A DNA stretch of 51,674 bases, taken from contig JAGQUR010000006.1 in NCBI GenBank assembly GCA_020438395.1, positions 1-51,674 of the forward strand, given 5' to 3'. Of the stretch, positions 35,176-42,849 are shown piece after piece; within the stretch, counting starts at the first letter, position 1; each line of letters starts with the position of its first letter. The position numbers and the translations under genes are program-made. The notes beneath the pieces are model-generated. The model did not search any database and was not told the DNA's origin. It was given only the letters and a program-made list of their open reading frames with translations. The DNA comes from Solirubrobacterales bacterium (GTDB lineage: Bacteria; Actinomycetota; Thermoleophilia; Solirubrobacterales; 70-9).

Positions 35176-35188
35176 GACAGGAAACGTG

Positions 35189-36961
35189 ATGACGAAAAAC
35201 AACACACCGGATGGAATTGTCAACAGGCGCCAGCGACTTCTTGCCGAGAGGCGTCGAGAAAAGGTTGTGGAGGCTCTTGCCAGTCACTACATGGAACTCG
35301 ACCCCGATCTCAGCCTGAGCAAGGCGACCACCAGAGCTGAAGAGTTCGCGAAAGAGGAAGGAGAAAAGAACCCTCACTTTGACGGAGTCTTTCTCGCTAC
35401 CGAACCGCCGTTTCGGTTGCCAGCCAGGTCGAGGACCTGTCCGATCGCTGAGATGAAAGGAATCGACGATCTGCCCGAAATGAGATGGCTGTTCGGTGAG
35501 ATGACAGCGGCGAAGACCGGTAGGCCCGCCAATCGCGAGATGGTCGTCGCGGCCTTCCGAAAGATGTCGTTCTTCGGAAGGCCCGACCTCCTTAATACCT
35601 ATCGCGAGTTCGCCTCGAACCCGGCTCTTGCCTGGGCTCATGGCGACCCGGAGATTCCGAGTTCGCTCTCGAAGCTCTACGACCAGCTCAAGTCGTTCTC
35701 GAGACGGATGCCTGCCGGCATGGTGATCCACGCCAACCTCGCCCTCGTCGATCGAATCGCCAACCTCAAAGACAGGAGGACCGGGAAGTTGCTGTTCCCG
35801 AACGCCTTCAAGTACTGCACTGTCGACGGAACCCTCATAGAGGCTGACGTGCCGCAAGGAGCTCCGAGAGGAAGGAGCCAGCGGGAGCGCAAGGTGATGG
35901 AGAGATCCATCACTGGTCCGGAAACCCGAATGGTTCAGTTCGTGTGGTACTCGCACACCAGCGGATCCGTTCCGGAAGACGGACCTGTCAGGCCGGCAGA
36001 GGTCTCCAAGAAATGCTTCGGTTGGAAGCTCGTGGTGATCTGCTGCCTCGACACCGGTACACCGATCACTTGGACCCTGATCCCGGCAAGCGGAGACGAA
36101 CGGATCGCACTCCGCGAACTCATCAGATCTCTCTACCTCCTCCGACCGGACTTCCCGATGGAGTACATCGTGGGAGACGGTCTCTACTCCATGTCGAAGG
36201 AGATATTCGACTTCATCGAACCCAAATACGGAATCACCACCGTGTTTCCTCGAGTTAAAAACCAGTCCACGAGCAAGAAGTGGTCGAAAACGGATGGGGT
36301 TCCCTGGTGCAAGCACGGCCTCATGAAGAACCGTGGAACTCAGCAGGCATGGAGATGGCGAACCAGGATCAAGCGAGGGGTCCGGCCCGGCGCACTCCCA
36401 CCACTGCGGAAATGGGAACAAGGCCACATCAGATGGACCTGTAAGGCCAAGTATGGCCACAAGTGCCCCGAGGTCAGGACCTACTTCAAGTGGGACCGAC
36501 ACCTCTACACCTTCCTTCCACACATGGGCGGAAGCAAGAAGGCAGCCCTGAGGTCTGTCCTTCAGGCTCGTCGCAACCGCAGCGAGTCGGTCTTCTCCCA
36601 AATGAAACACTCCGGGGCCGGCGCTAGGTGGCCCAACCGCGCCCGATGGGCGACCGACGACGGCATGCGGTGGCTGACCTCGATGGCCATGGTCCAAATC
36701 ACTGCCCGTCGCCTGATCCACCTCGATGGCAGCTACAAGAAAGCGCTGGATCGAACGCGTGATGAAGGTCTGCTGAATCCTTCGGACGAGCGTACGTTCT
36801 ACGCCCTGGTCGATGGTCGGGAGCCACTCGCCTCGGAGCCAGTGGAGGGCGCGGTCATTGAGCCCCCCGAGACCTGGGGAATCGATGCCGACCTCCCGAT
36901 CGACCGTGAGTACATCCTCCCATCGCTCGAGGAATTCAGCACCAAGATCGACCGGGAGTAG
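35189..36961 (+). CDS. DDE-type transposase-like protein
   Basis: This 590-residue protein has a transposase-like catalytic layout: Asp213 in KYCTVDGTLIEA, Asp330 in EYIVGDGLYS and Glu466 in RRNRSESVFSQMKHSG, the last resembling the E-x6-K signature. Between the second Asp and the Glu is a long insertion with a cysteine/histidine cluster (WCKHG, WTCKAKYGHKC) that may bind zinc. The ATG at 35189 is preceded by AGGAA; the GTG one codon earlier is too close. A strong terminator and the right-hand 20-bp repeat follow. I cannot name the IS family. It is the only recombinase-like gene seen in the island. Confidence 0.7.
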   Translation: MTKNNTPDGIVNRRQRLLAERRREKVVEALASHYMELDPDLSLSKATTRAEEFAKEEGEKNPHFDGVFLATEPPFRLPARSRTCPIAEMKGIDDLPEMRWLFGEMTAAKTGRPANREMVVAAFRKMSFFGRPDLLNTYREFASNPALAWAHGDPEIPSSLSKLYDQLKSFSRRMPAGMVIHANLALVDRIANLKDRRTGKLLFPNAFKYCTVDGTLIEADVPQGAPRGRSQRERKVMERSITGPETRMVQFVWYSHTSGSVPEDGPVRPAEVSKKCFGWKLVVICCLDTGTPITWTLIPASGDERIALRELIRSLYLLRPDFPMEYIVGDGLYSMSKEIFDFIEPKYGITTVFPRVKNQSTSKKWSKTDGVPWCKHGLMKNRGTQQAWRWRTRIKRGVRPGALPPLRKWEQGHIRWTCKAKYGHKCPEVRTYFKWDRHLYTFLPHMGGSKKAALRSVLQARRNRSESVFSQMKHSGAGARWPNRARWATDDGMRWLTSMAMVQITARRLIHLDGSYKKALDRTRDEGLLNPSDERTFYALVDGREPLASEPVEGAVIEPPETWGIDADLPIDREYILPSLEEFSTKIDRE

Positions 36962-42470: not shown

Positions 42471-42500
42471 AAAAGAAAAGGCCCGCCGAAGCGAGCCTTT
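42471..42500 (-). terminator. UUCG-tetraloop terminator
   Basis: Read on the minus strand the stem AAAGGCTCGC, loop TTCG and GCGGGCCTTT give 10 bp (one G-T pair), followed by TCTTTT, a strong intrinsic terminator. It implies a minus-strand transcript from the metW/tRNA-like region that ends here. On the plus strand the same hairpin may terminate the gene ending at 42468. Confidence 0.85.
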
Positions 42501-42563
42501 CCGAGGTGACGGGAGAACCACTCCCAACCGCCTGAGAAACGTAGTAAGACCTTAGCACCGGAC

Positions 42564-42649
42564 TTGCTGGATTCGGGGGTTGCCGTCGAAGGGGAACCAC
42601 CCGAAGCGACCTGAGTCTTGTCTGCCCGGCCTCGCCCCCGAACCAGCAA
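42564..42649. ncRNA. Long inverted repeat, candidate structured RNA
   Basis: TTGCTGGATTCGGGGG (42564-42579) pairs with CCCCCGAACCAGCAA (42635-42649) with one bulged base, enclosing 55 bases. It lies between the tRNA-like gene and the terminator at 42471-42500, inside a gene-free stretch (42469-42849), so it could be part of a minus-strand noncoding RNA of about 280 nt. I checked for SRP and tmRNA signatures and found none. Strand and function are not certain. Confidence 0.45.
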
Positions 42650-42654
42650 ATTTC

Positions 42655-42744
42655 TGGCGGAGGAAGGGGGACTCGAACCCCATCCGGCTGGTTAGGCCGA
42701 ACTCTCGCTTCTCAGGCGATTGCCGCCTGGCGGCTTCACCCTCC
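42655..42744 (-). tRNA. Unusual class II tRNA-like gene (8/4 fold, anticodon GAG, G73, encoded CCA)
   Basis: The 90-nt minus-strand sequence has acceptor GGAGGGTG pairing with CTTCCTCC (8 positions, one U-U mismatch), a GCCGCCAGGCGGC D arm, and anticodon stem TCGC/GCGA with loop CTGAGAA (anticodon GAG). A long variable arm (TTCGGCC...GCCGGA) precedes T stem GGGG/CCCC with loop TTCGAGT, then G73 and CCA. A standard 7/5 fold leaves mismatches in both stems; the 8/4 fold does not lose the T stem. G73 and the long arm are serine-like, while GAG is a leucine anticodon. It may be an allo-tRNA-type, suppressor-like, regulatory or degenerate tRNA. Confidence 0.65.
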
Positions 42745-42849
42745 GCTGACTCGAAGTTAGCTCAGCTGTCGCATTCGAATCCGGAGATTTTGCACTTCCG
42801 TCGCAGACTTCTTGCAGTTCTGTAAGGAAGTTGAGGGCTCGTTGCGAAT

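Follow-up and report, generated by a model that had tools for sequence, protein, structure and literature searches.

We analysed a 51,674-nucleotide stretch of a Solirubrobacterales genome (GenBank assembly GCA_020438395.1, contig JAGQUR010000006.1, positions 1 to 51,674; hereafter the window) and identified on its minus strand, about 105 nucleotides (nt) downstream of metW, a transfer RNA (tRNA) gene followed by a gene for a predicted small RNA complementary to the anticodon arm of that tRNA. By the structural tests described below, minus-strand positions 42744-42655 encode an allo-tRNA, a tRNA of a known kind, here with an acceptor stem of 8 base pairs (bp) and a T stem of 4 bp (an 8/4 fold). 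From sequence analysis we propose, with moderate confidence, that the locus is a two-RNA module in which the antisense RNA would mask a seryl missense tRNA. The locus comprises the following features.

42754-42759, minus strand: −10 box of the allo-tRNA promoter, TAACTT, 9 nt upstream of G1
42655-42744, minus strand: 8/4 allo-tRNA gene with anticodon GAG, G73 and encoded CCA (ARAGORN, fold and alignment)
42706-42721, minus strand: allo-tRNA segment complementary to the downstream RNA, tRNA positions 26-41, anticodon at 42711-42713 (complementarity)
42566-42647, minus strand: element A, a long hairpin in the tRNA 3' trailer (fold)
42549-42554, minus strand: −10 box TAAGGT of the antisense RNA gene (recurrent TANNNT)
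42471-42544, minus strand: element B, a putative antisense small RNA, roughly 70 nt long with inferred ends
42526-42541, minus strand: antisense segment CGTTTCTCAGGCGGTT, predicted 5' end of element B (complementarity)
42511-42525, minus strand: short hairpin GGGAG-UGGUU-CUCCC of element B (fold)
42475-42502, minus strand: intrinsic terminator, 12-bp stem and T tract (terminator scan)

The acceptor stem of the allo-tRNA is GGAGGGUG/CUUCCUCC (8 bp, with U7 and U66 unpaired and G8 paired to C65), and at the 3' end CUUCCUCC is followed by G73 and CCA. The D arm (GCCGC-CAG-GCGGC, 13 nt, preceded by AA) has 5 bp and a 3-nt loop. The anticodon arm (AUCGC-CUGAGAA-GCGAG, flanked by A on each side) has a stem weakened by a mismatch at 27:43, the variable arm (GUUCGGC-CUAACCA-GCCGGAU) has 7 bp, and the T arm (GGGG-UUCGAGU-CCCC) has a 4-bp stem. 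All that a first-pass annotation had read from the letters is in the sequence: the 8-position acceptor with a U-U mismatch, the GGGG/CCCC T stem, the long variable arm, G73, CCA and the anticodon GAG in a CUGAGAA loop. That annotation had also judged the gene a better fit as 8/4, and the minimum-free-energy fold of the single sequence is 8/4, with an unremarkable energy (z −0.80). Position 8 holds G instead of U, and CCA is encoded in none of the 41 canonical tRNA genes of the same genome. ARAGORN labels the gene tRNA-Leu(GAG). In an Rfam search the general tRNA model remained below its cut-off and the best match, to selenocysteine tRNA (tRNA-Sec, RF01852), scored 39 bits against a cut-off of 47. 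Relatives are 75-77% identical (E 4e-14).

Using a covariance model, we collected 31 members of the allo-tRNA family in about 22 genomes, found only in the class Thermoleophilia; structural statistics refer to the 23 members that were aligned. The relatives support the same fold as the single sequence. Pair 8:65 is G-C in 23/23, and 49:65, which the first-pass annotation had noted as a mismatch in any 7/5 fold, forms in 0/23, which settles the 8/4 fold. With this structure 94.6% of pairs are formed, compared with at most 53.9% when the partner strand is slid. Both sides change in 17 of the 25 stem pairs, and the 4-bp T stem shows compensatory changes. The suggestion that this could be a degenerate gene is not supported, as stems are maintained by compensatory change and the promoter box is conserved. 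Nearly all members have a D arm of mostly 5-6 bp with a 3-5 nt loop, and the D-loop GG and the T loop are kept. One or two mismatches (27:43, 28:42) occur in the anticodon stem of many members; 40 of the 41 canonical tRNAs of the window's genome have no mismatch there and one has a single mismatch. Three members outside the alignment (G399, G361 and G274b) may have a bulged U8. Within the 70 nt upstream of the 31 loci, 19 of the 20 TANNNT boxes found lie 8-12 nt before G1; 18 fall in one 4-nt bin (shuffle mean 3.2, 0/1000), and the genomic contexts differ.

At 27 of the 31 loci the same strand carries, downstream of the tRNA, a unit consisting of a −10 box, an antisense segment of 11-19 nt (G.U pairs allowed), hairpins and a terminator. 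Within 300 nt downstream, the mean length of the longest exact complement spanning the anticodon is 10.4 nt for a tRNA's own locus versus 4.2 nt for other loci, with controls of 3.4 nt upstream and 3.8 nt in the same sense (31 loci, 0/2000 permutations). For the 22 loci that were uninspected before the test, the mean is 10.5 nt versus a permutation maximum of 6.5 nt (0/5000). In register, tRNA positions 27-37 and 39 are paired in 25-27 of 27 loci, mostly by several pair types, per-position counts that are somewhat inflated by choosing the register by best fit; the permutations are unaffected by this choice. Covariation extends over tRNA positions 26-40 and stops at 41, and position 36 is matched for all four bases. 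Single-transition departures from Watson-Crick pairing at positions 27-39 give G.U more often than A.C (23 versus 6, p 0.002), which points to an antisense that acts as RNA of this strand.

In 26 of the 27 loci the antisense segment is preceded by a TANNNT box that lies 2-8 nt away (shuffle mean 1.6, maximum 6), so that an RNA of about 70 nt would begin with this segment. The segment is followed in most loci by a GC-rich hairpin and then by a strong terminator-like hairpin. Because shuffled sequences also yield about 0.8 terminators per region, support for the terminator comes from its recurrence at other loci. The predicted duplex of the antisense segment with the allo-tRNA has an energy of −31.6 kcal/mol, compared with −16.4 kcal/mol for the best canonical tRNA, Leu(GAG).

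Element A offers a further match to the anticodon. Its 9-nt loop shows the anti-anticodon CUCAG (ACUCAG), with the exact match CTCAGG at 42610-42615. We examined the stretch between the tRNA and element B at the 23 loci with a long enough trailer, and in 21 of these trailers there is an anti-anticodon, 4-9 nt long and usually located in a predicted loop; the summed complementarity to the own locus is 115 versus a permutation maximum of 85 (0/5000). Four loci that lack a full element B (G010b, G010c, G027a and G033a) retain the trailer match. The earlier idea of a regulatory RNA is partly borne out, in that the locus also encodes RNA complementary to the anticodon arm of the tRNA.

Several side observations concern the small-RNA units. 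A UCACC(U) motif resembling the anti-Shine-Dalgarno end of 16S ribosomal RNA often lies behind the element B hairpin (about 42510-42504, minus strand, in the window). At locus L111 (G436:C48), a second small-RNA unit of the same design lies behind the first, about +110 to +190 after G73. Its antisense, GGGTGTCAGCCGGTC, would suit another allo-tRNA, of which this incomplete genome showed no copy, and the unit is possibly an orphan antisense RNA. Locus L092 (G049:C24, 5001-5397) has tandem GCC allo-tRNAs separated by 311 bp, both accompanied by an antisense unit of their own; the second of these tRNAs lacks its 5' acceptor strand.

The identity elements of the family resemble those of tRNA-Ser. 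G73 is present in 29 of 31 members, and in 29 of 31 the acceptor begins GGAG or GGAA, like the tRNA-Ser genes of the window's genome and unlike its tRNA-Leu genes, which have A73 in place of the G73 of the allo-tRNA. Each genome encodes one full match above the cut-off to seryl-tRNA synthetase (SerRS), the other matches being short and far below it, and we therefore reject a dedicated second SerRS. SerRS binds its tRNA by the long variable arm and ignores the anticodon, so that allo-tRNAs with changed anticodons would keep their serylation. The anticodons of the 31 members are GAU (9), GAG (7), GAC (7), GCC (6) and GAA (2); none is a serine anticodon, and the codons read would be CUY, UUY, AUY, GUY or GGY. 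When the anticodon arm is left out of the tree, at least 13 changes fall at position 36, a count rather than a precise history because the tree has weak nodes, and G34 and A37 never change. In the window's genes the corresponding codons rank high in usage: GGC 2, AUC 4, GUC 6, CUC 8 and UUC 9. For the proposal of an ‘allo-tRNA placing serine at leucine codons’, every testable structural feature agrees (8/4 fold, Ser-like acceptor, G73, variable arm, D arm, non-Ser anticodon and one canonical SerRS); the window's allo-tRNA probably carries serine and would read leucine codons.

With tRNA-Sec (RF01852), the allo-tRNA shares a long D stem, an 8-bp acceptor and a long variable arm. It differs in its T stem (4 bp versus 5 bp) and in its anticodon, which is UCA in tRNA-Sec. 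We searched for SelA in the window's genome (G000, 86% complete), in G010 (94% complete) and in several other carriers and did not find it. A tRNA-Sec identity is rejected given the 4-bp T stem, the non-UCA anticodon, the 39-bit score against 47 and the lack of SelA; selenocysteine insertion at sense codons is discarded as a general role, since several carriers lack SelA.

We propose the following mechanism. RNA 1, the 8/4 allo-tRNA, would be transcribed from its own −10 box, charged by SerRS through its tRNA-Ser-like identity, and would read CUC/CUU. RNA 2, element B, would pair through its 5' end with positions 26-40 of RNA 1, a stretch covering the 5' strand of the anticodon stem, its entire loop and the first part of the 3' strand. 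This pairing may invade the weak anticodon stem, force it open and exclude the allo-tRNA from the ribosome. If RNA 2 became scarce, the serylated allo-tRNA would place serine at very common hydrophobic (or glycine) codons, those for leucine here and for phenylalanine, isoleucine, valine or glycine elsewhere, with likely harm to protein cores. We infer from this that the module could serve in addiction or in a stress response. A toxin-antitoxin role is plausible, since the loci are patchy, dispersed and sometimes present in multiple copies with diverged specificities. More tentatively, the modules could form a Thermoleophilia family of RNA-only toxin-antitoxin systems, in which a serine-charged missense tRNA would be the toxin and the linked small RNA, unwinding and masking the anticodon arm, the antitoxin; the pairs would diverge in step, giving paralogous modules without cross-talk. 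We consider this last reading less likely than not.

Several findings weigh against a masked seryl missense tRNA, in addition to the inflated per-position counts. Members G274c, G049b and G019 have broken stems, and U33, present in 26 of 31 members, is replaced by C33 in five. The orthologues that follow metW read different amino acids (CUY in the window, UUY in two relatives), so that no single codon is a conserved target. Finally, G010b, G010c, G027a and G033a have the trailer match without a full antisense segment, and since 4 of 31 loci are of this kind, the small RNA is not strictly required.

Alternatively, the small RNA may tune a useful low-level misincorporation of serine under stress, with no addiction involved. 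Such regulated adaptive mistranslation is possible, if somewhat unlikely in our judgement. It would agree with the placement of the loci among ordinary genes (in the window, the methionine genes metW, metX and metY) and with natural mistranslating tRNAs in actinomycetes, namely tRNA-ProX of Streptomyces and Kitasatospora as described in PMC11415595. It is less compatible with the patchy occurrence (14 of 232 genomes of the order), with a target codon that varies between orthologues and with several copies of different specificities in one genome.

The tRNA, trailer hairpin and element B could instead form one transcript, in which intramolecular pairing of the anticodon arm would delay tRNA maturation. 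All parts share one strand and fit into about 270 nt, the one terminator detected in the window stands at their end, and the trailer loop covaries too. The −10 box 2-8 nt before nearly every antisense segment (26 of 27) suggests a separate element B transcript, and we consider control in cis unlikely. A low probability also attaches to a non-translational pair, in which the tRNA-like RNA would only regulate or sponge the small RNA (or others) and never decode. The anticodon stem mismatches and the presence of a normal tRNA-Leu(GAG) in the genome would suit such a pair, as would the inactivity of some Acidobacteria allo-tRNA-like RNAs in Escherichia coli, reported in PMC7609411. The invariant G34 and A37, the prevalent U33, the retained D-loop GG and T loop, and a CCA encoded here and in no canonical tRNA gene of the genome argue for a decoding tRNA. 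A tRNA pseudogene with chance inverted repeats, or mobile-element DNA with inverted repeats, might explain patchy copies beside unrelated genes; it is highly improbable given the compensatory tRNA changes, conserved −10 boxes, matched complementarity, the excess of G.U over A.C, and the lack of a common neighbour gene or of any match among viral contigs, phages and plasmids. The ARAGORN label and the anticodon speak for an ordinary tRNA-Leu(GAG) whose 7/5 fold is slightly irregular. The alignment refutes this reading (49:65 in 0/23); the gene also has G73 for A73 and G8 for U8, a canonical tRNA-Leu(GAG) is present elsewhere in the genome, and we give the reading next to no credence. The two-RNA module with a masked seryl missense tRNA remains our preferred reading.

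The family is patchy and dispersed, and some genomes contain several copies of differing specificity. Carriers make up 14 of the order's 232 genomes and, in one further family, 8 of 103; further members were sought in the rest of the family of G274 and the rest of the order, and none was found. Elsewhere in the phylum no score exceeded about 47 bits, which is also what ordinary tRNA-Ser and tRNA-Sec reach in the order, and weaker matches (about 37-50 bits), where inspected, were ordinary tRNA-Ser or tRNA-Sec. The window's genome (Solirubrobacterales, 2.6 Mb) encodes canonical tRNA-Leu with anticodons GAG, UAG, CAA and UAA and tRNA-Ser with UGA, GCU, CGA and GGA. G010, of the same genus, is the metagenome-assembled genome (MAG) ‘Solirubrobacterales bacterium 67-14’ (contig MKST01000002.1). 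Other carriers include Conexibacter arvalis DSM 23288 (NZ_JACHNU010000013.1), Conexibacter sp. CPCC 205762 and Solirubrobacteraceae/Thermoleophilaceae MAGs. In G010, two recent duplicates, G010c and G010b (G010:C2:330386-330477 and 343052-343143), are nearly identical outside the anticodon arm (anticodons GAC and GAG), as though this arm had been diversified or exchanged as one unit. Identical copies with a damaged acceptor end occur at two contig ends of G274 (G274:C41:39-124 and G274:C56:10-95) and probably represent one repeated or decaying locus.

Neighbouring genes in the window are metW, metX, metY, a secreted-repeat lipoprotein and a beta-lactamase-like protein; the next gene beyond the module is convergent, and no gene follows on the same strand. 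The position after metW, earlier called unusual, is common to 3 of 18 genus genomes, where the copies are orthologous in place, and is not general in the family. The 15 others lack the allo-tRNA gene there, and a search for traces after metW in them yielded none that was convincing. We reject a functional link to metW, given its limitation to 3 of 18 genomes. We found no common neighbour gene or island, as the copies flank unrelated genes, and a phage or plasmid origin is rejected for lack of any match to viral contigs, phages or plasmids. Elsewhere in the window, a DDE transposase-like open reading frame (35186-36961, plus strand) adjoins a tRNA-Ala(CGC) gene, and the stretch containing two tRNA-Ala genes and the allo-tRNA is partly common to G007.

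To our knowledge, allo-tRNAs have no known natural role. A co-evolving, linked anti-anticodon RNA gives them a partner and a testable mechanism, a missense tRNA controlled by pairing of its anticodon arm, and the module is open to experiment because carriers include cultured Conexibacter strains. If the proposal is correct, matched pairs of a suppressor tRNA and an RNA off-switch could be of use in synthetic biology. In the open-access literature we came upon no report of a tRNA to which an antisense RNA is linked, and as far as that literature shows, the novelty lies in the two-RNA module and not in the tRNA alone.

Among known systems, the closest counterpart of the tRNA is the allo-tRNAs of Mukai et al. 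(2017), reviewed in PMC7609411 and PMC7590224. They share with the present family the 12-bp branch of the 8/4 fold, a long variable arm, a Sec-like long D stem, Ser-type features and variable non-Ser anticodons. The reviews report serine insertion at sense codons by allo-tRNAs in E. coli (PMC7609411, PMC7590224), including insertion at CUC and UUA test codons by 8/4 and 9/3 allo-tRNAs of Silvibacterium bohemicum (PMC7609411). They report allo-tRNAs from Clostridia, Proteobacteria and Acidobacteria, unlike the present Thermoleophilia (Actinomycetota), and with anticodons spread across 35 codons, whereas the present family is narrow (G34-A35-N36 or GCC). A linked, co-varying anti-anticodon RNA was not found in the passages of the two reviews that were consulted. 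PMC7609411 mentions unexplained allo-tRNA-like and irregular tRNA transcripts in soil metatranscriptomes, which may be related to the present module. The tRNA-ProX of PMC11415595 is likewise actinobacterial and combines the identity of one amino acid with the anticodon of another; it differs in its proline identity and linked dedicated prolyl-tRNA synthetase, and no antisense RNA is described in the section consulted.

T-box riboswitches present a codon-like loop that meets the tRNA anticodon through 3-4 nt, and their UGGN motif binds the tRNA 3' end. The locus similarly offers a codon-like loop to a tRNA anticodon beside an intrinsic terminator, but the pairing here is 11-19 nt, and the loop of the element B hairpin is UGGU in some members and UAGC, UGAC, GCAA or others elsewhere. 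A T-box riboswitch is rejected because UGGN is not consistent and the next gene in the window is convergent.

Type VIII toxin-antitoxin pairs, which consist of RNA only, include SdsR/RyeA and CreTA, and SdsR/RyeA neutralises by base pairing. The present module resembles these systems (SdsR/RyeA; CreTA, PMC10097628) in that a potentially harmful RNA lies beside a would-be neutralising RNA, with a linked, partner-specific antisense at 27 of the 31 loci, a specificity of sequence only. It differs in that the candidate toxin is a tRNA and that the antisense is a separate downstream gene of the same strand rather than an opposite-strand RNA. If the proposal is correct, the module would join a tRNA to an antisense RNA of its own and might represent a new class of RNA-only toxin-antitoxin system.
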